A stretch of 64,000 bases of DNA from Streptomyces sp. DHE7-1. Its GTDB lineage: Bacteria; Actinomycetota; Actinomycetes; Streptomycetales; Streptomycetaceae. The notes beneath the pieces are model-generated. The model saw nothing but the letters and a program-made list of their open reading frames with translations. It was not told where the DNA came from and ran no database searches. The stretch lies in contig JACJDG010000003.1 in NCBI GenBank assembly GCA_016432725.1, forward strand, positions 248,001 to 312,000, in the 5' to 3' direction. Below, in pieces: positions 8,227 through 39,998 of this stretch. A program made the translations under genes and the position numbers. Each line of letters opens with the position of its first letter. Position 1 is the stretch's first letter.

Positions 8227-9264
8227 GTGACGTCCCATCGTCGCCCTAAGCAGCCCAGCCGTACGCGTGTCACCGTGCTGACCACCGCGGCTGCCGCCGC
8301 CGTCGCGCTGAGCGCGAACGCCGCCAACGCCGCTCCGAGCGAGAAGCCCGGCAAGGACGAGGTCAAGGCGAAGGTCGACAAGCTCTACGAGCAGGCGGAG
8401 CAGGCCACCGAGAAGTACAACGGGGCCAAGGAGAAGCAGCAGAAGCTGCAGAAGGAAATCTCCACCATCCAGGACAACGTGGCCCGCGGCCAGGAGGAGC
8501 TCAACAAGCTCCGGGACGGCCTGGGTTCGCTGGCCACCGCGCAGTACCGCTCCGGCGGCATCGACCCCTCGGTCCAGCTCTTTTTGTCCTCCGACCCGGA
8601 CGACTACCTCGACAAGGCTTCCACGCTCGACCAGTTGAGCGGCCAGCAGGTCGAGGCGCTGAAGAAGATCCAGGACAAACAGCGCGAACTCGCCCAGGAG
8701 CGCGCCGAGGCCACGGGCAAGCTCAAGGACCTGGCCTCCACCCGCACCGAGCTGGGCAACAAGAAGAAGGAAGTCCAGGGCAAGCTCGCCGAGGCGCAGA
8801 AACTCCTCAACACCCTGACCGCCAAGGAGAAGGCGGCCCTCGCCGCCGAGCAGGCACGGGCCAGCCGCTCCTCAGCCGAGCGAGTGAACATCGGCCACCA
8901 CACCCCCGCATCCGGCCGGGCCGGCGCCGCGTTCTCGGCCGCCCAGAGCCAGATCGGGAAACCCTACGTCCGGGGCGCCACCGGCCCGTCCTCGTACGAC
9001 TGCTCGGGCCTGACCTCCTGGGCCTACGCCCAGGCCGGCGTCTCCATACCGCGCACCTCCGAGGCCCAGTCCGGCATCGGCACCCGGCTCACCCGCAGCC
9101 AGCTCCAGGTCGGCGACCTGGTCTTCTTCTTCAACGACCTGCACCACGTCGGCCTCTACGCCGGCAACGGCCAGATCCTGCACGCCCCGCGCACCGGCAC
9201 GGTCGTGCGGTACGAGTCGATGGACACCATCGGCGGACCTTTCATGTTCGGCGTCCGCGTCTGA
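8227..9264 (+). CDS. Secreted NlpC/P60 (C40) peptidoglycan hydrolase
   Basis: GTG 8227 follows AGGAG and gives 345 residues. A signal peptide ends near ANAANAA. Residues about 40-220 form a long coiled coil (EQATEKYNGAKEKQQKLQKE onward), as in RipA-type cell-wall hydrolases. The C-terminal NlpC/P60 domain carries the catalytic cysteine in SSYDCSGLTSWAY, the histidine in LHHVGLYAGNG and a third polar residue in QILHAPRTG. Such enzymes cut the D-Glu to diaminopimelate bond in peptidoglycan stems. The protein should act outside the membrane during growth or sporulation. I looked for the c-di-AMP riboswitch often found before such genes and did not see its core. Confidence 0.9.
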   Translation: MTSHRRPKQPSRTRVTVLTTAAAAAVALSANAANAAPSEKPGKDEVKAKVDKLYEQAEQATEKYNGAKEKQQKLQKEISTIQDNVARGQEELNKLRDGLGSLATAQYRSGGIDPSVQLFLSSDPDDYLDKASTLDQLSGQQVEALKKIQDKQRELAQERAEATGKLKDLASTRTELGNKKKEVQGKLAEAQKLLNTLTAKEKAALAAEQARASRSSAERVNIGHHTPASGRAGAAFSAAQSQIGKPYVRGATGPSSYDCSGLTSWAYAQAGVSIPRTSEAQSGIGTRLTRSQLQVGDLVFFFNDLHHVGLYAGNGQILHAPRTGTVVRYESMDTIGGPFMFGVRV

Positions 9265-9338
9265 CCTCACCGCTTCGGACTTCCCCCTCCCCTGCGGGGC
9301 CGCCGGCGGGAGACGAGTACGGGGGCCGGCATGGTGAA

Positions 9339-9698
9339 GTGGAGGCCCAGGTCGTGGCCGAAGTGCTTCGTCATCATGGACCGGTGACGACATGGATGCG
9401 CTGTTACTGGGACGAGGAAGACGTCTGGTTCTACTTCGAGCTCGACGCCGAAGGCTGGGTGACGCGCCAGGTCGAACTCCAGGGCCCTGCATCATCTCCG
9501 ATCGCAGCAGCTTCCCTCGAGGAATGGCAGCGGGCCCAGAACCTCGGGCATCAAGGTGAGTACGACAACAGGTTCGGTGTCACAGCCGAGTTGCCCGTCT
9601 CCGAATGGGAAGGCCACGCGCCTGAGCAGCTCTCCTCCGAAGAGTTCGAGGCGGTATGGGGTCGCGCCCGTCGACTGATCGCATCTCGGCCGCGCTGA
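9339..9698 (+). CDS. Hypothetical protein, DUF6881-like
   Basis: This 119-residue protein has no signal peptide or membrane segment. The layout, a strand such as WFYFELDAEGWVTRQVEL early and SSEEFEAVWGRA at the end, resembles DUF6881 proteins, small acidic cytoplasmic proteins of unknown role in actinomycetes. The match is by eye and from memory. It follows the NlpC/P60 gene by 74 bases on the same strand, so co-transcription is possible. Confidence 0.6.
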   Translation: MEAQVVAEVLRHHGPVTTWMRCYWDEEDVWFYFELDAEGWVTRQVELQGPASSPIAAASLEEWQRAQNLGHQGEYDNRFGVTAELPVSEWEGHAPEQLSSEEFEAVWGRARRLIASRPR

Positions 9699-9920
9699 GG
9701 CTTCTCTCCGACCCGCATGGCGGCTGCCGCTTCATGCGGAGGCCGACATGCCGAGCCGTCCAGCCCGGCTGATGTCGTTGCCCGACACCGAGGCCCGGCA
9801 AGGCGCACCGGCCGGCATGAGAGGGGTGGCTGCCCCGAGGGATCGTCCCCGACGGATGCGGGGGCGGTCTCGGATCTTTACTCGGGAGGCCTGATCTGCG
9901 TGAGGCCTCCTGACGCGCGA

Positions 9921-10649
9921 TCAGGCCTGTGTAGCGCCGCGGTCCGCTGCGAGGCGGGTCAGCCACTCGCGCAGCAGGAGCTGCTCGGCGTCGCTCAGGA
10001 CATCGGCATCGTCGGGCAGAGCGGCGCGCAGCGCGCGGGCCGCCGCGGCGGGGCCGGTCTCCGCGGCAGGAACCATCGGCTCGGCGCGAGTGATGGTGGC
10101 GACCATGGCCTCGCGGAGGGCCGTCAGCAGCTCCGGATTGCGACGGTCAGCCGGGGTCGAGTGCCAGGTGATGACCGCGCCTCGGCCGGTGGCCTGGATG
10201 ACCTGGGCAGCCAGCTCCTCGTCGACCCGCAGCCATCCACCGGCCGCCAGTCGGCGCACCCGGCCATGGAGGATCTCCAAGCCCGCGCGATGCGCCATGT
10301 CCGCTCCCCGGCCGGTGGCCCTGTTCATCACCGCGAACAGCTCGGGGCGGGAGATGCCGAACTCCACCACCATGTCCCAGCCGCGACGCAGGTCCTCCAC
10401 CGCGTCCTGTGGTTCGGGATCGAGCAGCGCGCGCTTGCTCTCCAGGAACTGCGCGTAGCCGTGCTCCGCGACGGCTTCGAGGAGACCCTCCTTGTCGCCG
10501 AAGAGGCGGTAGATCGCCGGCGGCTGCATCCCGGCCGCAGCGGCGACCGCACGGGTGCTCACCGCGTCCGGCCCGCTGGTCTCCAGTAGCTCGACGGCCG
10601 CCTCGACGATGCGGTGACGAGGGCTGTCGATGGTGTCGCGGGTAGCCAT
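9921..10649 (-). CDS. TetR/AcrR-family regulator
   Basis: From ATG 10649 the 242-residue protein begins with a TetR DNA-binding domain: RHRIVEAAVELLETSGPDAV, then the recognition helix region AAAAGMQPPAIYRLFGDKEG. The remainder is a helical ligand-binding domain. It is divergent from the NmrA-like gene, with 87 bases between the starts; that spacer contains an inverted repeat, so it probably represses both genes. Ligand unknown. Confidence 0.9.
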   Translation of the reverse strand: MATRDTIDSPRHRIVEAAVELLETSGPDAVSTRAVAAAAGMQPPAIYRLFGDKEGLLEAVAEHGYAQFLESKRALLDPEPQDAVEDLRRGWDMVVEFGISRPELFAVMNRATGRGADMAHRAGLEILHGRVRRLAAGGWLRVDEELAAQVIQATGRGAVITWHSTPADRRNPELLTALREAMVATITRAEPMVPAAETGPAAAARALRAALPDDADVLSDAEQLLLREWLTRLAADRGATQA

Positions 10650-10684
10650 GAACCGATGATATCGCGCATTTGATTCCACCGATA

Positions 10685-10718
10685 TTCCAGTGTTAACGTC
10701 GAAACGATTCCACTGGAA
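10685..10718. promoter_or_regulatory. Candidate TetR operator
   Basis: TTCCAGTG (10685-10692) and CACTGGAA (10711-10718) form a perfect 8-base inverted repeat with an 18-base spacer. The word GATTCCAC also occurs twice (10672-10679 and 10706-10713). Both lie between the divergent TetR and NmrA-like starts. Confidence 0.5.
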
Positions 10719-10736
10719 ACAGCATCGGGAGCACCC

Positions 10737-11596
10737 ATGATCATCGTTACTGGCGCCACCGGAAAGCTCGGCCGTCGCACGGTCGAACGCCTCTTGGAGC
10801 GCGTTCCCGCCGATCGCGTCGGCGTCAGCGTCCGCGACCCCCGCAGGGCCCAGGACCTCGCCGACCGCGGCGTACGTGTCCGGCGGGGCAGCTTCGACGA
10901 CCCCGCCTCGCTCGTGCATGCCTTCGAGGGGCGGAGCAACTGCTCCTCGTATCCCTCGACCGCACGGGCGAGGAGTGCGTCACCGGCCACCGCACCGCCA
11001 TCGACGCCGCCGTGAAGGCCGGCGCCGGCCGCATCCTCTACACCAGCCAGATGGGCGCCTCTCACGACTCCCGCTTCCAGGCGTGCCGCGACCACGCCCG
11101 GACCGAGGACCTGCTGCACGCCACCGGCCTGCCCTGGACCGCGCTGCGCAACGGCTTCTACGCGGCCAGCGCCTTCCAGTTCCTGGAGTCCGCCCGCCAC
11201 ACCGGCGACATCGCCCTCCCCGCCGACGGCCCCGTCGCCTGGACCGGCCACGACGATCTCGCCGATGCCACCGCGGCGATCCTCGCCGAGGAGGGCCGCT
11301 TCGAGGGGCCCACCCCGCCGCTCACCGGCGCGGCGGCGCTCGACTTCGGCACCGTCGCCGAGATCGCGTCCCGCGCCACCGGACGGTCCTACACCCGCAC
11401 CGTCGTCCCCGACGACGCCTTCCACCAGCAGGCCCTGGCGCACGGCGCGCCGGCCCCGATCGCCGACCTGATCCTGAGCATCTTCGCAGCGGCACGAAAC
11501 GGCGAGTTCAGCGCCGTCGACTCGACGCTCGCCGAGCTGATCGGGCGAGAGCCAGCCACCTTCGGTGCCCTGCTGGAGCATGCCTGGGCCGAATAG
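10737..11596 (+). CDS. NmrA-like NAD(P)-binding protein (frameshifted)
   Basis: ATG 10737 starts MIIVTGATGKLGRRTVERLL, the Rossmann motif of NmrA-like atypical short-chain reductases. The frame breaks at the GGGG run at 10928-10931 and resumes as AEQLLLVSLDRTGEECVTGH and later GAGRILYTSQMGASHDSRF. One added G gives 286 residues, the usual size for this family (relatives include NAD(P)H quinone reductases of the QOR2 type). The catalytic Tyr-x-x-x-Lys of classical SDRs is not obvious. It is probably controlled by the divergent TetR protein. Confidence 0.85.
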
Positions 11597-11854
11597 ACGC
11601 GGTGATGGACGCGGTGTGACGCGCAGAAGACGTTCGTCCGCGTGGACGCTCCCGGCGCACGCGCCGTCAGCGGCCTGCTGCCTCGCGTGACGCCGACACC
11701 TTCAGTGCCGACAGCGCGTGCCCGGTGCATCATGCGCCCCTCGGCGGGGCCGACACCCGCCGCCACACGTCGCTGTCCACGTTTCCGACCGCTCGACCGC
11801 CGGAGGCCCCGCTTCGTCCGGGCTGCGGGGCACCCCCTCACCTGGCGGTGCCGG

Positions 11855-12802
11855 CTACCGGCAGGTGGGATCGGGGACGGCAGAGACGGTGTAGGGCGGC
11901 TGCCCCGGCGGATCGTCCAGCTGGCTGTTGACCACGTAGAGGCGGCAGCCGTGACGAGCGAGGGTGGTCGGCAGGGCGAACCGGTCACCGGTGATCCGAT
12001 GCTCCACCGTCCCGCTGCGGAGATCTCTACTCAGCTCGGCGATGTAAACCCCGGCTGGTGCACCGTAGTTGAGCACCGCGTAGAGATGGCGGCCCCGCAG
12101 CAGCATGCCGTCCGGCCCGAACGACGTCCCACCGAGTCGCACCTCCTCGACGGCCTTCGTGGTGGTGTTCACCCGCCACACCGCCTCCGTGCCGTTGGAC
12201 GCCACGAGCAGCGTCCTGCCCGTCCGGTCAGCCGTGATGCCGTTGAGCAGCCAGTACTGGGCCGGAAACCGCGGAGCAGCGCCGCGGATGTCGAGCCAGG
12301 GACGCAACGGGCCAAGGCGACCGGCGCGTAGTACGGCTCGGTGGATCACGGGATTGGCCCAGTCGGTGACGTACACGGCGTCCTTGGTGATGACGAGGTC
12401 GTTGAGGTTCGCGGCGCCGAGAGGGCCGTCCTCGGCCCTGCGGCGGGCGACCAGGCGCCCGGCTCGGTCGTGCACCGTGAGGATCGAGCCGCCCACGGAG
12501 AAGACGCGGTGGCGGGCATCGGTGTGCACCCCGAGCGCGCTCGGGCGATCGGCGATGCCCTGAGCGGCGAACGGCCGCAGCTCGGCATCACCGATCCGTC
12601 CCGTGAACAGCCGGCCGGTGCCTTTGGACGTGACGTACAGGGTGCCGTCCGGCTCCACCGCGATTCCCTCCGGCAGGGTGCCGGGATCCCGCGAGACGAC
12701 GTAGACCTCGGGTAGGTCCCGAGCGCCCGCGGGAACGGCTGTGCCGGCCGCCGCCAGGAGCACCGAAGCCCCCAGACAGAGCAGACGTGTCATGACGCGC
12801 AT
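11855..12802 (-). CDS. Secreted beta-propeller protein (SMP-30/NHL-like)
   Basis: ATG 12802 with a GGGGAGG site gives 315 residues beginning with a signal peptide (MTRLLCLGASVLLAAAGTAV, cleavage near AGA). Repeated blades such as LPEGIAVEPDGTLYVTSKGTG, NDLVITKDAVYVTDWANPV and NGITADRTGRTLLVASNGTE show a six-bladed propeller like SMP-30/gluconolactonase. The cysteines near the end (HGCRLY and DPTCR) may form a disulfide. Substrate unknown. It is divergent from the ArsR/DUF5937 regulator with 201 bases between starts, so it may be the target of that regulator. Confidence 0.8.
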   Translation of the reverse strand: MRVMTRLLCLGASVLLAAAGTAVPAGARDLPEVYVVSRDPGTLPEGIAVEPDGTLYVTSKGTGRLFTGRIGDAELRPFAAQGIADRPSALGVHTDARHRVFSVGGSILTVHDRAGRLVARRRAEDGPLGAANLNDLVITKDAVYVTDWANPVIHRAVLRAGRLGPLRPWLDIRGAAPRFPAQYWLLNGITADRTGRTLLVASNGTEAVWRVNTTTKAVEEVRLGGTSFGPDGMLLRGRHLYAVLNYGAPAGVYIAELSRDLRSGTVEHRITGDRFALPTTLARHGCRLYVVNSQLDDPPGQPPYTVSAVPDPTCR

Positions 12803-13003
12803 CCATTTACCTCCCCGACGATGTACTGCAGGGCCTGCCGCACCAACCGCCCCATGCCGGCCCGACCCCCGGCTCCCTCGGCGATCAAGCCGCGGCCACC
12901 AGGCTGCGCCAATCGGGCGTGCCGTCGCGACGTTCCGTGCCATGATTCGACCAGGTTCGAAGACGGCCGCTGCGCCAACGGGATTGGATGGTCGGGAGGT
13001 TCG

Positions 13004-14002
13004 TTGATCGAGCTCACCGTGGACGCCGCCGGGCTCGCCCGTTCCCGTTTCGCCATCTCACCGTTGCACGAGGTCGTGGCGACCCTGCTGCCCTGGGGCA
13101 TGCGCCCGGCCGCCGACGCCGACCCTTGGGTCGCCCGCGCCCGACGTGTGCTGCGCCGGGCCCAGCTGCCCCTGCTCTCCGAACTGGCGCTGGACGCGGG
13201 CGGGTACGTGCCCGACTTCCTCAGCCCGCATCCCGTGCAGCCCTCCCCCAGCGTCGAAGAGGAGCTGCAGCGGGTACGGTGCACCCCGCCCGAGCGCGTC
13301 CTGGGCGAACTGCAGGCGCTCCGCGACGGGCGGCCGTGCAACGGGCTCGCCGGCTGCGAGCTGCCGCCGGGAGTACGGCGGGCCATGGCACGGGGCGGCG
13401 CACACGTGGCCCGGCAGGCCGCGGACGAGATGCGGCGCTACTGGGAGCTCGCCTTCGCCCCGCACTGGAAAGCAGCCAAAAGCGCGCTCGACGCGGAAGT
13501 CGACAGATGCGCAGGCGTGCTGGCCCGACACGGAGCGGCCGCACTCTTCAACTCACTGCACCCGCACATCCGATGGGCCGACGGGACCCTGCACGTCGAA
13601 AGCCGGTACCAGATCGCGCTGCCCGTACCCCAGGTGATCGTCGTACCATCCCTCGTCGCGCCTCAACCGGCCGTGGCCGTGGACCCGACACGTGACGGAG
13701 CCAGGCCCCCGATGCTCGTCCATCCCGTGCGCGACAAGACCATCACCGACACCATCTCCCCAGGAGCACCCACCGCCGAAACAGCCCAGCTGCTCGGCCC
13801 CACCAGGGCGGCACTCCTCGCGGCACTGACACAACCAACCTCCACCGCACAGCTGGCAGCACGCCACTACCTCAGTCCTGCCACGGTCTCCTACCACCTA
13901 GGCGTACTCCACCGAGCCGGCCTCGTCACCCGCACCCGAACCGGCCGGACAGTGCTCTACCACCAGACGCCCAACGCAACTCGGCTGACACAGAGTCACT
14001 AG
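13004..14002 (+). CDS. ArsR-family regulator with DUF5937 N-terminus
   Basis: A TTG at 13004 after GGGAGG is the best start, giving 332 residues. The N-terminal two thirds (FAISPLHEVVATLLPWGM, ARRVLRRAQLPLLSELAL) matches the DUF5937 domain of many Streptomyces regulators. The C-terminal winged helix (TAQLAARHYLSPATVSYHLG, then LHRAGLVTRTRTGRTVLYH) is ArsR/HTH_20 type. The direct repeat CTGCGCCAA(T)CGGG occurs twice in the upstream spacer (12904 and 12970) and could be its binding site. Target and ligand unknown. Confidence 0.85.
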   Translation: MIELTVDAAGLARSRFAISPLHEVVATLLPWGMRPAADADPWVARARRVLRRAQLPLLSELALDAGGYVPDFLSPHPVQPSPSVEEELQRVRCTPPERVLGELQALRDGRPCNGLAGCELPPGVRRAMARGGAHVARQAADEMRRYWELAFAPHWKAAKSALDAEVDRCAGVLARHGAAALFNSLHPHIRWADGTLHVESRYQIALPVPQVIVVPSLVAPQPAVAVDPTRDGARPPMLVHPVRDKTITDTISPGAPTAETAQLLGPTRAALLAALTQPTSTAQLAARHYLSPATVSYHLGVLHRAGLVTRTRTGRTVLYHQTPNATRLTQSH

Positions 14003-14192
14003 ACCGCGGCACGGTACACGCCGAGGCACTGGCGATGCACTGCCGATGCGCTGCCGTCGCTCGCGAGCCGGTCCGGGCACTTCCTCCCCGCCGCCGGCGG
14101 CACCGCCGCCCACATCCGCTCGCGGGCCCGGCGGCCTGACGCACTGGTAAATCGATGGCGTGCCCGAAGCACTCAGCCCCACCCTGGTCCCT

Positions 14193-14786
14193 ATGGCAGA
14201 GCCCAAATTCCAGATCAGAGCCCAGCACACGGACTCCACGATCACCGTTTACCAGGCGTACTCTCCGGCGATCGGCCTCCCGGCGGCTCGGGAGAACCGT
14301 TTCCCGGCTCTGTGGCGGCGGGACCGGATGACATGGATCAAGCCGTCGTTCCTGTGGATGATGTACCGCTGCGGGTGGGGCACCAAAGAGGGACAGGAGA
14401 CCGTCCTCGCCGTCGAGATCCTCCGTGAAGGCTTCGAGTGGGCGCTGCACCATGCCTGCCTGTCCCACTACGAGCCCGGGCTGCATGCCGACCGCGCAGC
14501 CTGGAAACGCCGGCTGAAGCAGGCCCCGGCCCGAGTGCAGTGGGACCCCGAACGCGATCTGCGCCTTCAACCACTTGACCACCGATCGCTCCAGCTCGGC
14601 CTCACCGGTGAAGCCGCGCGCCTCTACGCAGATGAGTGGACCGTCTCGATCACGGACGTCACATCGCTCGCCCGCACCGTCCGGGCCCACGTGCGGAACG
14701 GACACCTGGACGCCGCACGACAACTCCTGCCCAGCGAACGCCCCTACGCCGTCGACGAAGAGATCCTGTCCCATCTGCACCGCTGA
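14193..14786 (+). CDS. DUF4291 domain protein
   Basis: The motifs VYQAYSPAIG, RMTWIKPSFLWMMYRCGWG, RVQWDPERDLRLQPLDHRS and ADEWTVSITDVT match DUF4291, a widespread soluble family of unknown function. The family usually begins close to the QIRA motif, so ATG 14193 (197 residues) is preferred over the GTG at 14160. Neither start has a good ribosome site. It is a single gene. Confidence 0.85.
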   Translation: MAEPKFQIRAQHTDSTITVYQAYSPAIGLPAARENRFPALWRRDRMTWIKPSFLWMMYRCGWGTKEGQETVLAVEILREGFEWALHHACLSHYEPGLHADRAAWKRRLKQAPARVQWDPERDLRLQPLDHRSLQLGLTGEAARLYADEWTVSITDVTSLARTVRAHVRNGHLDAARQLLPSERPYAVDEEILSHLHR

Positions 14787-14897
14787 GCCCTCCCACCGAT
14801 CCAGTCGAATGTCCGGAGAAGCCGCGCGCCCAGTTGATCAGCCGCTGACTGGCGGCTGTGCCTCGGCGCCCGCGCCCGGCATCGAGCAGTACGAACA

Positions 14898-15520
14898 TCA
14901 AGTCACTCGAAACGACCTCTGAGCCTGGATTGCCGCGGCCGACCTGGCGGCCTGCTCGATCCTCGCGCAGTGGGCTGCACGGGCTTCCTCGTCAATCTTC
15001 TTCTCGTGTTCGGCGCGCACCCCGGTCCGGCCGTCGAGGCCCTCGCGCAGGATGTCGGCGTGCCCGGCATGCCGGATGGACTCGCCGAGGACGTGGACCA
15101 GGACGGCGAACAGGTTCGTGTTGGGGTGAGGCTCCGGCCACCACGGCACGTGGCCGGGGCGTCGAGGGGCAGGTCGTTGATCGTGGCGTCCGAGTGTTCC
15201 CACGTGCGCTGGTAGAACCCGATGATCTGATCGCGGCTCTCGTCCTCGGTCGCCCACTGATCGCTGCCGTCGTGGTCCTGCCACCGGGGCAGCGGTTCCG
15301 GGGAAGGGCGGTCGAAGACCTCGCCGAAGTACCTGGCCTCGACGGTGGCCACGTGTTTGACCAGGCCGAGCAGGTTGGTCCCGGTCGCTGTCAAAGGTCG
15401 GCGGGCGTCGTACTCGGACAAGCCGTCGAGTTTCCAGAGCAGTGCCCTGCGGTCCCGCCGCAGTCTCCCGTGCAGGCTGTCCTTCGCGAATTCATCGATC
15501 ACGCGGCATGAGCCTGCCAT
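14898..15520 (-). CDS. DinB/DUF664 family protein (frameshifted)
   Basis: The first part (LLWKLDGLSEYDARRPLTAT, then LLGLVKHVATVEARYFGEVF) is a DinB four-helix bundle of the DUF664 type. After a break near 15153-15160 (a missing G in CCCCGGCCACG) the next frame continues VPWWPEPHPNTNLFAVLVHV and then GESIRHAGHADILREGLDG. Metal-ligand histidines sit in KHVAT and RHAGHAD. Related actinobacterial proteins use mycothiol; that role is only inferred here. GTG 15502 is an alternative start. Confidence 0.8.
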
Positions 15521-29023: not shown

Positions 29024-29186
<163 letters not shown>

Positions 29187-29318
29187 GTCCGCTGACGGTG
29201 CCCTGACATGCTCGCGTCACCCGGCGTCCGGCGTCCGGCGTCCGGCGAACTGACGGTGCGCGGCCTGATGGCCGCCATGGGCGATGCGAGCGTGCTGGTT
29301 GGTTCCGTCCGGGCCGGA

Positions 29319-30515
29319 TCAGACGAACGTGGACAGGCCCTCGAGGAGCCGGTCCACGTCGTCGGCGGTGTTGTACGGCGCGAGGCCGGCTCGCAGTGCG
29401 GGGTCCGGCAGTTTGAGGGCGTTGAAGGGCTCGTACGCGTAGAACGAGCCAGCGGGGGCCACGACGCCGCGAGCGGCCAGGTGTGCCTGGGCTTGGCGGG
29501 CGTCCCGGCCGTCGAAGCTCATCAGCAGGGTCGGGGTGCGGTCGGCTGCCTTGGAGTGCAGGGTGACGGCGGCTCCGAGGGCTCGCAGCCCTCCTCCAGC
29601 CTGGTGCGCAGGGTCCGCTCGTGTGAGTGGAGGGAGCCCAGCGAGTGCGTGAGCTGCTCTCGACGCGTCGTCTGTGTACCGGGGTCGAGGGCGGTGAGGA
29701 AGTCCACGGCGGCGGTGGCGCCCGCCAGGATCTCGTAGGGCAGAGTCCCGAACTCGAAACGCTCGGGCACCGCGTTGGACGACGGAACGAGTTTGTCGGG
29801 CTGGATCGTCTCGAGGAGTCCGGGGGAGCCTGCGAGCACGCCGCAGTGCGGTCCGAGGAACTTGTAGGGGAGCAGACGAACAGGTCCGCGCCCATGGCGG
29901 GCACGTCGACCAGGTGGTGGGCGGCGTAGTGCACGCCGTCCACGAACACGAGGGCGCCGGCCTCGTGCGCGAGGTCGGCGATCTGTCGGACGGGCGGCTG
30001 GGTGCCCAGGACGTTGGAAGCCGCGGTGAGGGCGACCAGACGCGTTCGCGCGGTGAGTGCCCGCCGGAAGGACCCGAGGTCGAGGTCGGTGGTGTCGGGA
30101 TCGATCTCGATCCAGCGGACGGTCACATCGGCGCGCTGGGCGGCCTGGACCCAGGGGCGGACGTTGCAGTCGTGGTCCAGACGGCTGAGGACGATCTCGT
30201 CGCCGCGCTGCCAGTCCTTGGCGAGGTGACGGGAGAAGTCGTAGGTGAGCTGGGTGGCGCTGCGACCGTGGACGATGCCGTCGGCGGGCACGTTGAGCAG
30301 GTCCCCGTAGGCGGCCCGGAACGCCACCACCGTGTGTTCGGCGTTGAGTTCGGACGGGCTGGTGACGCCTCGGTTGGAGAGGGGGCCGGTCATGGTGGCA
30401 GTGATGGCGTCGGCGACGGGGCGGGGGTCTGGGTGCCGCCGGGTCCGTCGAAGAAGGCGAGGCCGGTGTCGAGGGAGGGGAAGTGGGCTCGCAGAGCGTT
30501 CAGATCGATGGCCAT
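29319..30515 (-). CDS. Cysteine desulfurase-like aminotransferase class V (three frameshifts)
   Basis: ATG 30515 with GAGG starts [20 protein letters not shown]. Breaks near 30423, 29868 and 29591 each need one extra base. In order, the pieces read [75 protein letters not shown] and [18 protein letters not shown]. The PLP-binding lysine is in SPYKFLGPH and its aspartate in VFVDGVH. Repaired length is 399 residues. It fits the cysteine desulfurase-like subfamily (VC1184 type), whose substrate is not well defined. No iron-sulfur genes are adjacent. Confidence 0.85.
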
Positions 30516-32219: not shown

Positions 32220-35016
32220 CTACCGATCGCGGACGGTATCCGCCTCCTGGGCGGGATTGCCCTCCCACCGTGCCTCAGGCGGGACTTCCTCGCCCTTCAT
32301 CAGGAAGGAGTCGGGGGCGAGTTGTGCCCGGTCGCCGATCGTGGTGCCGTAGTGCACGAGGGCTCCCACGCCGATGGTGACGCCCGCGCCTATCGTGGCG
32401 CGGTCGGACTTGAAGGTGCCGTCCTCCTGCGAGTGGCACTGGATGACGCTGCCCGCGTTGAGAGCGCTTCCGTCTCCGACGCTGACGAGGGTCCGCTCGG
32501 TGATCGCGCAGCCGTCGTCGAAGACCCGGCGTCCGATCCTGGCGCCCAGCAGCCGCCAGACCAGGACCTTGAACGGGGTGCCGTTGAATGCCTGCACGTA
32601 TTCGTGCGACGTCAGCTTCCAGTACCGCTCGTGACCCCAGAAATCGGGATCGTAGATCGAGCAGTACAGCGATCTGAGCGGACGGAATCCCGTGACGGTC
32701 CGCTCGATGAGGGCGAAGTAGAAGACGGTGAACACGACGGTGAGCAGGCCCGCCAGCGCATAGACCGGCACACCGAGCGTCGGGAAGAGCTCGACGGCGG
32801 TCATGGTGATGAGGACGAGCACGAAGAAGTGGAACCATCGCGCCACCAGGTGCAGGCTCGCGGTGACCGCGTTGTGCCTGTTCTTGGCCGCGAGCCGGCG
32901 GCGCATTTCGGCACCCTGGGCGAGTTGGTCGAAGCGGGTGTCGCGCAGTACCGAGCGCGGGATCTGGAAGCTGGGTGAGCCGAGCAGTCCGACACCTTCG
33001 CGTACCGGGCCGTCGACGGGGACCATGGTCTTGGTCGCGAGCAGGCAGTTGTCGCCGGTCCGGCCGCCCGCGGGGTAGGCGATGCGGTTACCGATGAAGT
33101 TGTTCGGCCCGATCGAGGTGCGGGACAGTCGGAAGGACGAGCTGGAGAAGTCGGCGTTGATGATGGAGAGTCCGTCGGCGACCATCGTCCCGGTGCCCAC
33201 GGTGCTGAGGTACGGGGTGTCGTGCTTGACGAGCGAGCCGAAGTTCGAGCCGGTCTGTTCGACGTGGCACAGGTCGTAGCCCAGGCACCGCAGGTAGTGC
33301 ACGATCGCGGAGCTGTCGCCGAAGAGTGTGGTGAAGAACCTGATGTTGGTCAGTCGAGTGATCGCCCGCTGGATGCTGTGGTGGAAGCCGTACAACGGGT
33401 AGGTCCGGCCCGGCTCCATCGCCAGGCTGAGCAGCCGCGGGACCGTGCTCACGACCAGCAGTCCCGCGACGATGCCTCCGAAGAAGGCCACCAGGGACGC
33501 GGCCAGTGCCTCGACGTAGAACGCGGGACTGGTGAAGGCTTGGGGCCCCGGCGTGAACACCGCGTTGAGCTGCGGCACCGTGGTGAACACGAGGCTCACG
33601 CCGGCCAGCGCCAGGGGGAGGTACACCAGCAGCAGGGCCAGCAGTTCCGACAGGCTGTAGAGGACCCGGCGGAGGGGCCGCACGCGGCGGGTTCGACGGC
33701 GCGGAAGTCGGTCGTCGTCGGCTCCGCCGGTGTCCCGTGCCACGATTCTCCGGCTGGAATCTCCTGCCCGGAGTGCAGGGAGGAGGCGTGTCCCAGTTGG
33801 CTGTGGTCGCCCATCGACGTGTAGATGTCGACGACGGCCTGAACGCCGACGGTCACATCGGCGCCGAGGGTGACGGGGCCCGTCTCTATGCAGCCGTCTT
33901 GCGCGCGGTAACACGACAACAGCACGTCCTTGCGGACCACCGTGCCGTCACCGATGGTCAGGAGGTCGGTGCCGACCGGGACGGTCCGGGACAGGAAGGT
34001 GACGCCCTTTCCGATGTGCGCGCCGAGCGCTCTGAGGTACAGCACGTACAGCGGTGAACCGGTGAAAAGGCGTACCGGGCTGGTGCGGATGAGGGTCTTG
34101 ACGCACCAGAAGCGCAGGTAGGCGGGACTCCACAGGGGGATCCGGCGGGGAGCGAAGCGGCCGATGAGCATCCACTTGGCCGCGACGGGCAACGCGCAGG
34201 CGCCGGCCAAAAGCACCGCGCCGAACAGCACCGCCCTCACGTAGGTGCCCGCCGGCCCTCGCCTTCCACGGTCCACTCGTAGCCGAGTACGGCGATCGTG
34301 GCGCCCAGAGAGGAGAAGACGAGGAACATCAGTAGCTGAGCCGTTCCGCACAGCGCGTGCCGCCATGGGCCGCACCGGGGCGCAGCCGACACGTCGGGGC
34401 GGGAGCCGCTCTCCGCGGGGACGCGGGAGTCGCCCTGTGACGTGGCTTGCGAGGACTGGGCGGCAGTGGGTGTCTCCGTGAACGCGTCGGCCAGGCTCCG
34501 GATCGTCGGGTACCGGTAGATGTCCTTCATCGACACAGTCGGCAGGTCGTCCCGCTTGCGCACCCGAGCACAGAACTGCGCCATCACCAGCGAATCAGCA
34601 CCCAGATCCGTGAAGAAGTCGGCATCAACCGGCACCCGCTCGGCACGCAGCACACCGGCCAGCACCTCCGCCATGGAGCCCTCTGTGCCGGTCGACGCAT
34701 CCGTCGACGCCGTCACGTCGGCTCGAGTGCCCGCCGGCGCCCCAGGGGAAGCGCTGGCGGTCACGGCTTCGGCCAGACTCCGGATCGTCGGGGCCCGGTA
34801 GATGTCCTTCATCGACACCGACGGCAGGTCGTCCCGCTTCCGCACCCGAGCACAGAACTGCGCCATCACCAGCGAATCAGCACCCAGATCTGCGAAGAAG
34901 TCCCCGTCCACCGGCACCCGCTCGGCGCGCAGTACACCGGCCAGCACCTCCGCCAGTTGCGCCTCGGTGACTGTCGCCGCACCGGTCGTGCCTTTGGCAG
35001 TGGCGTCCGAGTGCAT
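32220..35016 (-). CDS. Pls/PosA-type membrane synthetase tail with two carrier domains, no adenylation domain (two frameshifts)
   Basis: ATG 35016 follows GGAGGCGAGAGCAC. Two tandem carrier domains come first (about residues 17-85 and 112-180), each with the phosphopantetheine serine in DLGADSLVMAQFC and the same MKDIYR end. The rest, about 700 residues, is the Pls/PosA NRPS terminal domain: several membrane helices (LLALLLVYLPLALAGVSLVF and others) and left-handed beta-helix hexapeptide repeats (GTGTMVADGLSIIN, GAGVTIGVGALVHYGTTIGD). Frame breaks near 34248 and 33693 each need one base; repaired length is about 932 residues. In epsilon-poly-lysine synthetase this tail joins amino acids. Here the adenylation domain is missing and no gene for one is nearby, so a partner enzyme in trans is inferred. 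Confidence 0.85.
34490..34957. repeat. Direct repeat encoding the two carrier domains
   Basis: About 186 bases at 34490-34675 recur at 34772-34957, offset by 282 bases (94 codons), with roughly nine in ten bases identical by eye. Third-codon positions are also mostly the same, indicating recent duplication or gene conversion of the carrier domain. Confidence 0.85.
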
Positions 35017-35366
35017 GTGCTCTCGCCTCCAGTCAGGCCGGTCCACTGTCCGGGGCCCGGGCACCGCCCCGTTGCCGTGTGTACGCGGTGGAGTGACAGC
35101 GGTCCTGCAACACGGCGTGTTGCTCGGTGCCGAACGCCTTCCCGCGCAATGGGCCGGCTCGCTTGTCCGACCCTCGTCCTGGTCTGGGTATCCGTGGCTG
35201 GACACGGCGAACCGGCTTCGGCCGAAGAGTCGCCCCGCCCCGGACGGGCCTGTCGAACGCAGGCGCAGGGCCTGGGTGCGGAGCGCGCAGGCGGCGACGG
35301 CCCGCGATCGCAGAGGCGAGACACGGCCTCCCCGCTGTGCCGGGCCCGAACGCTTTCTCCCAGGGC
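35017..35366. other. Intergenic stretch, no supported gene
   Basis: No open frame with family similarity. It holds the upstream region of the Pls-type gene, including its GGAGG site. Confidence 0.4.
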
Positions 35367-36053
35367 CTACCCATGGCCGGCGAACATCGCCTCCCGGGTA
35401 GAACTTGATCGTTCCGCACCGCCCAGGCGGGCAACCGGCAGGGGTTGATCACCTGCGGTGGGCTCGGACATCGCCGAACGCGGGACGGGCCATGGGCGGC
35501 ACTCAGCGACGGAGGCGTGGCCGAGCCGTACGTCCCAGCGACCGTCGCGCGACGTGAAGGTGACTGCGGACCGGGGCGGCACATGGACATGCGGGAAGGT
35601 CCTTGCCGGTATGGCCAGAGCGTGGATGAGCGCGGCCCGGACGACGGCCGCTTCCGTGATGGCCAGTACGTGGCCCGTGCCGGGCGCTACTTCGCTCAGC
35701 CAGGACGCGATCCGGTCGCAGAGCTGACGTACGGACTCACCCTCGTGCGGTGCGGCATCGGGGTCGGTGAGCCAGGTGGTGAACCCGTCGGGGTCGCTTG
35801 CGGCGATGTCGCCGAGGGTGCGACCAGACCACCTGCCAAGGTCCAGGTCCCGCAGCGCGGGCTCGGCCGCTGCCACCAGACCGAGGGCGTCGGCGGCCTG
35901 CGAGCAGCGGAGGGAGGGGGCCCTGACAACCATGTCGGGCGGAGGTGGCTCTGCTCCCGTCACGCGTGCCTCACCTACGCTGCGGTCGCTGCGGGGGCGG
36001 TCACCGGGAAGCGGTTCCACGGCGGGGGCGCACAGAAATGTCAGGCGGATCAT
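35367..36053 (-). CDS. Histidine phosphatase-fold protein lacking the RHG motif
   Basis: ATG 36053 follows AAGGAGG. The product has the fold of histidine phosphatases (VVRAPSLRCSQAADALGLVA, LRDLDLGRWSGRTLGDIAAS, HEGESVRQLCDRIASWLSEV, HVLAITEAAVVRAALIHAL). However, the N-terminus reads MIRLTFLCAPAVEPLPGDRP, where the family normally has R-H-G with the catalytic histidine, and the second conserved His (normally SHG..) is replaced by TEAAV. It is therefore probably not an active phosphatase. Streptomyces has a subgroup of such proteins, some near cobalt transporters. Length 228 residues; the last 30 look unconserved. Confidence 0.8.
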   Translation of the reverse strand: MIRLTFLCAPAVEPLPGDRPRSDRSVGEARVTGAEPPPPDMVVRAPSLRCSQAADALGLVAAAEPALRDLDLGRWSGRTLGDIAASDPDGFTTWLTDPDAAPHEGESVRQLCDRIASWLSEVAPGTGHVLAITEAAVVRAALIHALAIPARTFPHVHVPPRSAVTFTSRDGRWDVRLGHASVAECRPWPVPRSAMSEPTAGDQPLPVARLGGAERSSSTREAMFAGHG

Positions 36054-36713: not shown

Positions 36714-37319
36714 ATGGTCGGCGCACAGACACAGAGGGCCGAGCGGGGGCCGGGACGGCCGCGGCAGGAGCGGGTCACGGACGCCACCCTCGAGGCGGTG
36801 ATCGAGCTCGTCACGGAGCACGGCGTGAAGGCGGTGACGATGGACGCCGTGGCCGCCCGCGCAGGGGTCAGCAAGCCCGCCATCTACCGGCGCTGGCCGT
36901 CCAAGCAGGCTCTGATCATCGCGGCGGCGGAATCGCGTATCGGGCCCCTGTCGGTGCCGGACCTGGGCGACATCCGGGCTGAGCTGCGCGAGGTGCTGAC
37001 AGCGCGCCTGGCCGCCTACCGGTTGCCGGGTACGGCCCGGCTGCTGACGGAGTTGATGACCTCCGCGGCCGAGCCGGGAGGGCCCCGCGGTGAGTACGTG
37101 GACTACACGGAACGGCTGATGGCCGAGACGCGACGCATTCTGCAGCGTGGCATCGCCCGTGGGGAGGTGCGTCCCGACGTCGACATCCGGTCGGCGGCCA
37201 CGCTGGTGGCTGCGCCCCTGGTCTACCGCCTGCTGGCGGAGCGGGAACTGCCCAACGCGCTCTTCGTCGAGGACCTGGTGGACCTGGTCGTCCGTGCGGT
37301 CGGCCAGCCGGCTGGTTGA
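36714..37319 (+). CDS. TetR/AcrR-family regulator
   Basis: ATG 36714 gives 201 residues with a classic TetR helix-turn-helix (ATLEAVIELVTEHGVKAVTM, DAVAARAGVSKPAIYRRWPS, KQALI) and a TetR_C-type helical domain. It is tail-to-tail with the MFS gene (3 bases apart). It is the nearest regulator to the MFS/TauD divergent pair and the best candidate to bind their shared motif. GC-rich ribosome site CGGAG. Confidence 0.85.
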   Translation: MVGAQTQRAERGPGRPRQERVTDATLEAVIELVTEHGVKAVTMDAVAARAGVSKPAIYRRWPSKQALIIAAAESRIGPLSVPDLGDIRAELREVLTARLAAYRLPGTARLLTELMTSAAEPGGPRGEYVDYTERLMAETRRILQRGIARGEVRPDVDIRSAATLVAAPLVYRLLAERELPNALFVEDLVDLVVRAVGQPAG

Positions 37320-37322
37320 TCT

Positions 37323-38645
37323 TCAGGGTGTCAGACGCCGGGCGTCGCGGGCCGGGTGGATCAGTGTGACAGCGGCCGTTCCTCCCAGCGCGAGCAGTGC
37401 GGCGGCGAGCAGCACGGCGTGCCGGTAGCCGTCGCTGCCCTGGGCGTCGACCAGGTGTCCCGTCAGGGCCGGGGCGATCAGGCCGGCCAAGGTGACCACG
37501 GCGTTCATCAGACCGAGGGAGCCGCCACGTCGACGGGCCGGGACGAGTTCGGCGACCGAGGTCACCGCGACCGTCGACATCGCCCCGCACAGGCCGAAGC
37601 CGATGAGCAGGACCAGCACGGTGACCGGGCCGCGGCCGGCCTGCGACAAAGCAGCACAGCCGAGCGCGGAGACGAGCAGCAGGATGCCGCCTGTGCGGCC
37701 GCGGGCCCAGCGGCTGCTCACACCGCGTCGCAGCAGCCAGCCGGTCAGTCCCGCCTGGCCCAGCAGCACCATGCCGTTGACCGCCCAAAGCGCGGCGACC
37801 AAGCCTGCCGCGGTGGTGGTGGAGTAGCCCAGGCCGTCGTGCAGGTACGACGGCACCCACACCAGTGAGAGGGCGATCATCCAGTAGGTGCTGAAGTAGC
37901 CGATCGTGGCGCCGATCCAGGTCCTGGTGGCCAGGATGCGACGGTACGAGGGGGCCCGCGAGCCGTCTCCGCCGGCGCCGCCGGGGGCGGCCCCGCCGGA
38001 GTGGACGGTGTGCACCTCGGCTCCCGAGGTTCGGTCCCGGCCCAGCAGCGCCCAGACTGCCGCCCACACGACGCCGGCGACGGCGACCACCGCGAACGCC
38101 GAACGCCAGCCGTGGTGCTGGATCGTCCAGGTCAGCCCTGGCGCGGCGACCACCACGCCGAGGGTGATGCCGATACTGAGCAGAGCACCGGGAAGGTTGC
38201 GGCGGTGGTTCGGGAACCATGCGAGGGCGGTGTGCTGGGCCACGGGAAAGGCGGGCCCCTCCGCCGCACCCAGCACGATCCGCGACGCGACCAGTGTGAA
38301 CAGCCCTCCGCCGAGGGCCATCGGGGCCTGGGCCGCGGACCAGAGCAGTGCCATGCCCAGCAGCAACCAGCGGGGCCGCAGCCGATCCGCCGACAGGCCG
38401 CCCATGGCGCCGCAGAGCGAGAAGAGCAGGAAGAACGCGCTGTTCGTCAGGCCGAAGCCGGTCGCCGACAGGCCCAGGTCACGACGGATCGGGTCGGCCG
38501 CCAGTCCGAGGACGGACTTGTCGGCGAAGTTGACCATCATGAAGACCACCAGCAACCCGGTGACGGTCCAGGCCTGCCGCCGGTGGCTGCGGCTCGCCCG
38601 GCCGGGGCGGGTCGGCGTGGCGGCGGTGAGTTCGGTGTCGGGCAC
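37323..38645 (-). CDS. MFS transporter, anion:cation symporter (ACS) type
   Basis: GTG 38645 with GGAG nine bases upstream gives 440 residues and 12 membrane helices. The motifs VFMMVNFADKSVLGLAADPI, FGLTNSAFFLLFSLCGAMGG, LSADRLRPRWLLLGM and ALAWFPNHRRNLPGALLSIG are those of the ACS group, which imports organic anions such as sugar acids, phthalate or taurine-like compounds. It is divergent from a TauD dioxygenase and shares a 20-base motif with it, so it probably imports the dioxygenase substrate. Confidence 0.9.
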   Translation of the reverse strand: MPDTELTAATPTRPGRASRSHRRQAWTVTGLLVVFMMVNFADKSVLGLAADPIRRDLGLSATGFGLTNSAFFLLFSLCGAMGGLSADRLRPRWLLLGMALLWSAAQAPMALGGGLFTLVASRIVLGAAEGPAFPVAQHTALAWFPNHRRNLPGALLSIGITLGVVVAAPGLTWTIQHHGWRSAFAVVAVAGVVWAAVWALLGRDRTSGAEVHTVHSGGAAPGGAGGDGSRAPSYRRILATRTWIGATIGYFSTYWMIALSLVWVPSYLHDGLGYSTTTAAGLVAALWAVNGMVLLGQAGLTGWLLRRGVSSRWARGRTGGILLLVSALGCAALSQAGRGPVTVLVLLIGFGLCGAMSTVAVTSVAELVPARRRGGSLGLMNAVVTLAGLIAPALTGHLVDAQGSDGYRHAVLLAAALLALGGTAAVTLIHPARDARRLTP

Positions 38646-38760
38646 GAGGACTCCGCGGAGGTGGCTGCGCTGGGGCAGACATGGTTGGTGGGCGACCCGG
38701 AACAGGAGGCACCGGCAGGTGGGGCCCGAGGGCGGGCACCGGTCAACCTGGCGAGACAAT

Positions 38761-38780
38761 CGTTACGTGAAGTATCGATA
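38761..38780 (-). promoter_or_regulatory. Shared operator/promoter motif, MFS copy
   Basis: Read toward the MFS gene, the motif is TATCGATACTTCACGTAACG, 115 bases before its start. It matches the TauD copy at 39027-39046 in 18 of 20 bases, in the same orientation relative to its own gene, and contains the palindrome GTATCGATAC. Confidence 0.6.
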
Positions 38781-39026
38781 CCGCCTGGCGTGACGACAAG
38801 ACCCGTTCACTGCGAATGTCCCGAGGGTGCGCGAGGGTTTGCCGCGAGGCCGCTCGTCCGGGGGCGAGAGCTTCAGGGCAGCTTGCCGCTCCGGCCATCC
38901 GCTTGCTGCTACTCCCACCACCACGCCGCAGGCGTGGCACTCCGGCGACCGGACCCTCGGATGACGCACCCCTCCGGCGACGCGGCGAACTGGTCATGGA
39001 GAAGCCCTTGCCGCAACCCCGTCAGA

Positions 39027-39046
39027 TATCGATACTTCCGGTAACG
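39027..39046 (+). promoter_or_regulatory. Shared operator/promoter motif, TauD copy
   Basis: TATCGATACTTCCGGTAACG lies 30-49 bases before the TauD start and is the counterpart of the motif at 38761-38780. In both copies TCTCG follows a few bases further on. Confidence 0.6.
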
Positions 39047-39075
39047 TTTTCTCGGATGCGAGCGTGGAGGGCCAC

Positions 39076-39998
39076 ATGGAGACCGCCGGAACCGACAAGA
39101 ACCCCCTGCTGGAGAAGCCGCTGATCCACTTCGGCAGGCGTACGCTGGAGCGGACCACGCCGGGCACGCCTCAGGTCGGGTACCGACTGCTGGAGATCAC
39201 CCCGATGACCCCGCACATCGGTGCGGAGGTCGGCGGTGTGGACCTGTCCCGCCCGATCGGCGAGGCACTCGCCGAGGAGCTGCGGCAGGCGCTGCTCGAA
39301 TGGAAGGTCATCTTCTTCCGCGACCAGCGCGAGTTCGACGTCGACGCCCACCTGACCCTGTCCGCGGTGTGGGGGAGCCGGAACCCAATCCGTTCTTTCC
39401 CAAGGGCGACACCGCCGGTGTCTCACGACTGGCGAAGGACGCGGCGGCCGTCGGCCAGGAGAACGTCTGGCACAGCGACCACTCCTTCATGGCCGCGCCC
39501 GCCCTGGGATCGGTGCTCCGCGCGGTGGAGGTCCCGTCGTCCGGCGGCGACACCATGTGGGCCGACATGGGCGCCGCCTACGACAACCTCAGTGACGCGA
39601 TGAAGCGGCGCGTCGAGGGCCTGACAGCCGTGCACGACTGGGAGCCGAGCTGGGGTACGTTCATGACCCCGGAGCAGATAGCGGCGCTGCGCCGGTCCCT
39701 GCCTCCGGTGGAACACCCCGTCGTCGTGCGGCACCCGCGCACCGGACGCAGGACCCTGTACGTCAACGAGCCGTTCACCACCCGCATCGTGGGACTGCCC
39801 GAGGACGAGAGCCGGGAACTGCTCCACGAGCTCGGGCTCCAGGCACGGATCCCCGAGTTCCAGGTGCGGTTCCGCTGGCAGCCCGACTCGATCGCGATCT
39901 GGGACAACATCGCCGTCCAGCACTACGCCGTCAACGACTACTACCCCCGGCGTCGAGTGATGGAGCGCATCGCCATCGCCGGCGTCCCGCTGTCCTGA
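39076..39998 (+). CDS. TauD/TfdA-family dioxygenase (frameshifted)
   Basis: ATG 39076 with GGAGGG gives MTPHIGAEVGGVDLSRPIGE and LEWKVIFFRDQREFDVD. A missing G at 39371-39375 shifts the frame, which resumes EPEPNPFFPKGDTAGVSRLA. The iron ligands are H-x-D in NVWHSDHSF and the distal histidine in VQHYAVNDY, with the 2-oxoglutarate arginine just after (YYPRRRVMERI). Repaired length is 307 residues. This is an iron and 2-oxoglutarate-dependent oxygenase, often releasing sulfite from sulfonates or sulfate esters; the true substrate is unknown. Confidence 0.9.

Follow-up and report, generated by a model that had tools for sequence, protein, structure and literature searches.

A minus-strand gene at 35016-32220 of the window (a 64,000-nucleotide stretch of Streptomyces sp. 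DHE7-1 DNA) encodes a Pls/PosA-type synthetase tail that is preceded by two carrier domains but lacks an adenylation domain. From its surroundings and from gene content across genomes, we propose with moderate confidence that this two-carrier tail is supplied in trans with activated monomer by an adenylation-carrier protein encoded in an operon elsewhere in the genome.

The gene, with its ATG at 35016 and its stop at 32220, has the order carrier, carrier, tail, and its product is predicted to be a membrane enzyme forming amide bonds. A Pfam search matched PF00550 in two stretches (E value of 3.4e-22), and the NCBIfam model TIGR02353 matched two frame pieces of the gene with E values of 1.1e-69 and 7.2e-149; taken by itself, the latter piece scored 497 bits, above the curated cutoff of 423. 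An intact homolog, P0001 (Streptomyces sp. NPDC014793, 932 aa), which possesses both carriers and no adenylation domain, was 97, 97, and 99% identical to the three frame pieces of the window gene. The features are given below, with residues in P0001 numbering.

32220..35016, minus strand: Pls/PosA-type gene without adenylation domain (carrier, carrier, tail), split among three frames by the assembly; PF00550, TIGR02353; intact homolog P0001.
34741..34968, minus strand: first carrier domain, residues 17-92; PF00550, motif GADS, serine codon at 34873-34875.
34459..34686, minus strand: second carrier domain, residues 111-186; PF00550, motif GADS, serine codon at 34591-34593.
33671..34368, minus strand: start of the tail, comprising predicted helix pair 1 and left-handed beta-helix 1 (TIGR02353 and P0001 model); spans the first frame switch.
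32220..33683, minus strand: rest of the tail, comprising helix pairs 2 and 3 with their beta-helices (TIGR02353, 7.2e-149, and model).
Within 32220..33683, minus strand: D615 (33174-33176), F641-N644 (33087-33098), and H862 (32433-32435), the same in 101 aligned proteins.
35370..36053, minus strand: histidine-phosphatase-like protein of 228 aa without RHG motif (PF00300, 5.8e-20), upstream of the window gene.

Using the operon adenylation domain as a tblastn query, no adenylation domain was detected within 14 kb of the window gene. An upstream domain masked by sequencing errors was ruled out, since it was absent both from intact P0001 and from this 14-kb search. The architecture proposed in the initial annotation, two carriers and a Pls/PosA tail without an adenylation domain, was thus confirmed, and its caveat that error correction might uncover such a domain upstream found no counterpart in P0001.

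A protein search, the length limits of which shut out most adenylation-containing proteins, returned 3587 relatives; the best 120 listed were 769-983 aa long and 60-100% identical over the aligned part. Among 392 Streptomyces genomes, 143 matched the last 172 tail residues at an E value of 1e-50 or better, a few of them having a tail with its own, fused adenylation domain (L128, L129, and L197). Surroundings were read at 125 tail loci. At 105 of these, an adenylation-carrier protein, scored as a relative of the L042 adenylation domain within 14 kb and as a rule encoded by the next gene, lay beside the tail, and 96 of the 105 also had a TauD-type dioxygenase, SbnB, and SbnA. Other arrangements were SbnB, SbnA, and DUF418 without an adenylation gene (L247), TauD only at a contig edge (L170), a partial adenylation fusion with TauD (L007), and adenylation-free tails without the operon (L006, L122, and L216, all outside the clade described below).

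In Pfam searches, the adenylation protein of L042 comprised a C-terminal condensation-domain fragment (positions 189-284 of the 456 in the model), an adenylation domain, a carrier, and a thioesterase; that of L040 had a longer C-terminal condensation part, adenylation domain, and carrier, and that of L044 adenylation domain and carrier only. SbnB and SbnA of L042 scored 422.8 bits (cutoff, 326.9) and 386.5 bits (cutoff, 349.95), respectively, both against equivalog models. In the window's genome, the diaminopropionate genes are located at L039, apart from the window gene. The adenylation signature DIW[VLI]STADD was found in 37 of 42 adenylation-protein rows, the other five being three tails with a fused adenylation domain, one partial fusion, and a fragment that does not cover the signature region. 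Since this signature is unlike the D-F-E start of the tail-fused domains of L128, L129, and L131, the operon protein does not resemble a severed front half of Pls. By our own reading, and assuming K as the tenth operon residue, DIWVSTADD has D1, W3, and the final DD(K) in common with DVWQMIGDDK, given in section 16 of PMC12283262 as a code for beta-OH-Dab; according to the same paper, Dap and Dab codes resemble each other. An exact match to DIWVSTADD was not found in print in the literature searched. At L131 (Pseudonocardia parietis), an adenylation-carrier-carrier-tail fusion (DFETLCVVT; 11007-15278) adjoins an adenylation-carrier protein (DIWVSTADD; 8536-11007), two adenylation domains serving one locus.

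A FastTree phylogeny of 195 tails was built from 71 of the 120 database proteins, 123 of the 124 locus tails (all but L183, which lacked a single frame), and the window gene's last frame piece. In this tree, the window gene fell into a clade of 61 rows (support, 96) that was nested among operon tails. The 49 database proteins left out had been included in an earlier 173-row tree, where the window gene belonged to a 55-row clade (support, 95). Every two-carrier tail seen outside Pseudonocardia was contained in the 61-row clade. Surroundings were known for 11 clade loci (the window, L076, L164, L204, L208, L211, L213, L215, L219, L221, and L223), and the operon was absent within 14 kb at all 11. 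The position of this orphan clade within the operon-borne tails makes it probable that the clade stems from a tail gene that moved out of its operon but continued to use that operon's adenylation protein. One genome, G292, held five tails (L214-L218): a two-carrier orphan, an adenylation-free copy without neighbors, and three with an adjoining adenylation protein. Tails of Pseudonocardia (L009, 4696-5700; L133, start of the tail gene) had about 330 extra residues ahead of the carrier, and the L009 stretch matched no Pfam family.

In each of the 10 whole genomes where a clade orphan was found, the matches listed also included a tail with an adenylation protein elsewhere: G000 (L039), G050 (L091, cut by a contig edge after TauD), G130 (L165), G237 (L209 and L210), G249 (L220), G292 (L214 and L217), G309 (L212), G320 (L248), G378 (L222), and G398 (L224). 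Operon-type SbnB was likewise present in 10/10, and it was not found in a Streptomyces mirabilis plasmid record searched alone. The hypergeometric probability of this co-presence was 3.4e-5 at an operon rate of at most 143/392 and 1.7e-4 at the SbnB rate of 167/392, both figures ignoring the kinship of genomes. Six of the ten operon tails (L212, L217, L220, L091, L222, and L224) formed one clade in the 195-tail tree, so that the independent cases number about 5 and the chance becomes ∼0.6% (calculated by hand as (143/392)^5). Of 43 further tails, placed by coordinates only, 34 had SbnB within 9 kb, whereas 9 either lacked it or could not be assigned; for some genomes, the sample covers one copy. 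The genomes of the non-clade orphans L006, L122, and L216 also hold the operon. Because the two tails of the window's genome were only 60% identical, recent duplication fails to explain the pattern of orphan plus operon. A putative partner in trans is the best explanation, since all 10 orphan genomes hold a tail and adenylation protein elsewhere. Together with the separate adenylation protein at 105/125 tail loci, this supports, from gene context only, the split machine with a free-standing adenylation enzyme that had been suggested initially.

In the mechanism that we propose, SbnA and SbnB would make L-2,3-diaminopropionate, and the operon adenylation domain (DIW[VLI]STADD) would activate this amino acid or a derivative of it from the TauD-type enzyme. 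The operon protein would charge the carriers of the orphan tail besides its own, and the three-fold beta-helix tail would act at the membrane, linking the aminoacyl groups to each other so that a cationic isopeptide polymer results, as in poly-lysine and poly-diaminopropionate synthetases. A further, rather doubtful elaboration is a distributed machine, in which one adenylation-carrier protein would feed both the operon tail and a distant orphan adding branches, caps, or a surface anchor; the orphan would then have moved out of the operon, duplicated its carrier, and acquired new membrane-protein neighbors.

Charging of the orphan carriers by another adenylating enzyme or an aminoacyl ligase, instead of the operon protein, appears unlikely. 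The window's genome does contain many other NRPS adenylation domains (53 matches), and L131 is the main fact at odds with a simple replacement of the missing domain: because a fused adenylation domain stands there beside the separate adenylation-carrier protein, the latter need not feed the tail's carriers and may have a role of its own. However, the operon protein is the only partner identified next to tails (105/125 loci), and it recurred in each of the 10 orphan genomes; moreover, no other adenylation gene was found within 14 kb of the orphans in a search limited to relatives of the operon domain.

The tail itself was compared between 91 adenylation-free proteins and 10 long-frame Pls-like proteins, the latter classed as adenylation-containing by frame length alone (1321-1415 aa). 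Common to both sets were W282, R287, W304, S412, D615, F641, G643, N644, E797, T814, H862, and D866, whereas Q588, N592, K663, R798, and H889 were invariant among the adenylation-free proteins but differed in the ten long-frame ones. Judged from these residues, the tail chemistry is probably shared with Pls-like proteins, with a somewhat different substrate site. The initial annotation had made its reading depend on conservation of the carrier serines and tail residues among homologs; the serine was present in the alignments examined, and the tail residues were conserved. An AlphaFold2 model of P0001 (mean pLDDT, 79.4; pTM, 0.75), built on a 79-row alignment from which loci of the genome search were left out, comprised two carrier helix bundles followed by three repeats of a long helix pair and a beta-rich part, the beta-rich parts being read here as left-handed beta-helices. 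In a Foldseek comparison with the PDB, hexapeptide acetyltransferases ranked on top (best E value, 6.9e-05), and the mupirocin didomain ACP was found at rank 25 (1.2e-03). The model agrees with the PosA tail model of PMC10522769, as far as that model is described in the accessible part of the paper.

The assertion that the gene stands alone held with respect to operon genes but not otherwise: the histidine-phosphatase-like gene lies upstream on the same strand and recurs beside relatives. A phosphatase-like gene, a DUF418 gene, or both were near 9 of the 11 clade loci; L164 and L213 had neither within 14 kb. Within this distance, a histidine-phosphatase-like gene was found at 6/11 clade loci versus 1/105 operon loci (3/8 clade loci with the query loci, i.e., the window, L076, and L204, removed). 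A DUF418 gene was present at 7/11 clade loci versus 3/105 operon loci, or 5/9 versus 2/104 with the query loci L076, L044, and L204 removed. The order in the S. mirabilis plasmid is DUF418, histidine phosphatase family protein, hypothetical gene, and tail. Three operon loci had DUF418/HGSNAT-like membrane proteins directly before the tail (L044, 7558-8709; L094, 7112-8314; L127, 7404-8672). The RHG motif, which we take to be expected in histidine phosphatases, was absent from the seven phosphatase-like proteins aligned; beside orphan tails, such proteins without RHG were encoded at 35370-36053 of the window, 5961-6575 of L076, and 7131-7751 of L204. Because this motif is missing, the phosphatase-like proteins may be noncatalytic, as judged from their sequences. 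At 36714-39998 of the window, a regulator resembling TetR on visual inspection, a transporter of the MFS type (PF07690), and a TauD dioxygenase (PF02668) across two frames seem to form a set of their own for uptake and breakdown. The TauD gene (39064-39998) was set aside as a candidate part of the system; it belongs to the TauD family, but blastp tied it to no operon gene.

These neighborhoods bear on a Dlt-like surface decoration, in which the tail, with a DUF418 partner, would pass an amino acid to an envelope acceptor without polymerization. The enrichment of DUF418 genes near clade loci, the additional matches of DUF418 proteins to Acyl_transf_3 and HGSNAT_cat, and the five tail positions fixed differently from the Pls-like proteins are all in its favor. 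Since the core tail residues are nevertheless identical to those of Pls-like proteins and the window locus has no DUF418 gene within 14 kb, we regard surface decoration as distinctly improbable.

In the assembly, the window gene is distributed over three overlapping open reading frames (34237-35205, 33596-34375, and 32220-33914), with frame switches within about 34249-34261 and 33671-33683 according to the coordinates of the pieces aligned to P0001. The median length of called genes, determined with a simple purpose-made gene caller, was 198.5 aa in the window (64 genes) compared to 333 aa at 42 other loci (594 genes), and the operon copy elsewhere in the window's genome was broken in the assembly as well. 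Because window genes are short overall and this operon copy is broken too, the assembly seems to be indel-rich, and sequencing errors are the likely cause of the frame breaks in the window gene. Many other genes of the window look indel-broken, e.g., an aminotransferase-like stretch at 29098-30393. The three frames, together with the partial loss of the first carrier in L076, might also suggest a decaying paralog that is broken and functionless in this strain. This is very unlikely, however, since near-identical homologs are intact, the 61-row clade keeps the carrier serine and the tail residues, and short, broken genes are widespread in the assembly.

The serine at position 142, in the second carrier, was present in 101/101 aligned rows. 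Both carriers of the same protein were 79-95% identical in 22 of the 23 proteins compared; the remaining one, P0055, proved to be a false motif hit. First carriers of different proteins had a mean identity of 0.79. In 6/23 proteins, the first carrier was more similar to the second carrier of the same protein than to the first carrier of any other protein, which points to recent copying or conversion for some pairs and to an older origin for others. In L213 and L223, the two carriers were identical over the stretch compared, and in L076 an internal gap in the first carrier over the serine region left one motif. With a profile made from five carriers, two matches, some of them partial, were obtained in 31 of the 120 best-listed relatives. 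Carrier number differed among members of the orphan clade, 9 of the 11 clade loci with known surroundings having two intact carriers (the window being scored from P0001). Of the 105 operon loci, just two showed a pair of carriers, namely the Pseudonocardia loci L131 and L132. Loss of the carrier serine in some operon tails was considered, as a strict serine motif gave no match at nine operon loci, and rejected for the seven whose frame reaches the carrier (CANS or GANS in six, GADS in one); outside those seven are L195 (cut by a contig edge), L183, and L039.

Because the carriers are near-copies and the first carrier of L076 lacks its serine region, a dosage role is favored over two monomers, and the second carrier most likely raises throughput without bringing a second monomer. 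The multi-monomer machine envisaged in the initial annotation was therefore not supported, and a mixed polymer built from different monomers on the two carriers is highly improbable: two intact carriers at 9/11 clade loci and the two adenylation domains of differing signature beside two carriers in L131 speak for it, but the near-identity of the carriers and their inconstant number in the clade speak against it.

In the accessible texts of PMC4668381, PMC10522769, and PMC8117764, Pls-type synthetases are single adenylation-carrier-tail proteins. The PosA sequence network of PMC10522769, as given in its accessible part, took only proteins of 1100-1800 residues, a range that excludes adenylation-free tails, which are therefore missing from it. 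No description of adenylation-free or tandem-carrier Pls tails was found in the literature searched, which included the accessible parts of these three papers and of PMC13291983 and PMC12283262; as this literature consisted mostly of nonsubscription papers without supplements, the result is weak evidence of novelty. If monomer supply in trans holds true, these tails would represent a natural split version of a known polymer-making machine, in which activation and polymerization are separable for study and the tail's chemistry becomes testable with separately charged carriers, and they would point to an undescribed class of cationic polymers.

Among known systems, Dlt D-alanylation employs a stand-alone adenylating enzyme, a carrier, and a membrane acyltransferase as separate parts, whereas in the window gene the carrier is fused to the tail. 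Streptothricin biosynthesis likewise uses a separate adenylation protein and an isopeptide-linked diamino acid; there, the adenylation protein is credited with bond formation, which in the split system would be expected from the membrane tail. Its oligo-beta-lysine assembly, as mentioned in PMC10522769, relies on a stand-alone adenylation domain, as in the split system proposed here. The poly(L-diaminopropionic acid) synthetase of Streptomyces albulus PD-1 has, according to the accessible text of PMC4668381, the same tail type as the window gene, and its diaminopropionate comes from cysteine-synthase-like and ornithine-cyclodeaminase-like enzymes, comparable to SbnA and SbnB of the operon. In contrast to that synthetase, which unites adenylation domain, carrier, and tail in one protein, the adenylation domain here is separate and of another signature, and the window gene lies apart from the operon. 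Pls (epsilon-poly-L-lysine synthetase) and PosA (delta-poly-L-ornithine synthetase), as presented in the accessible part of PMC10522769, have a carrier followed by the TIGR02353 membrane/beta-helix tail in common with the window gene, which differs from them in its missing adenylation domain, its two carriers, and five tail positions fixed differently. Since no adenylation domain is present in the same protein, we expect the window gene to work like Pls and PosA rather than to be a full member of their family.
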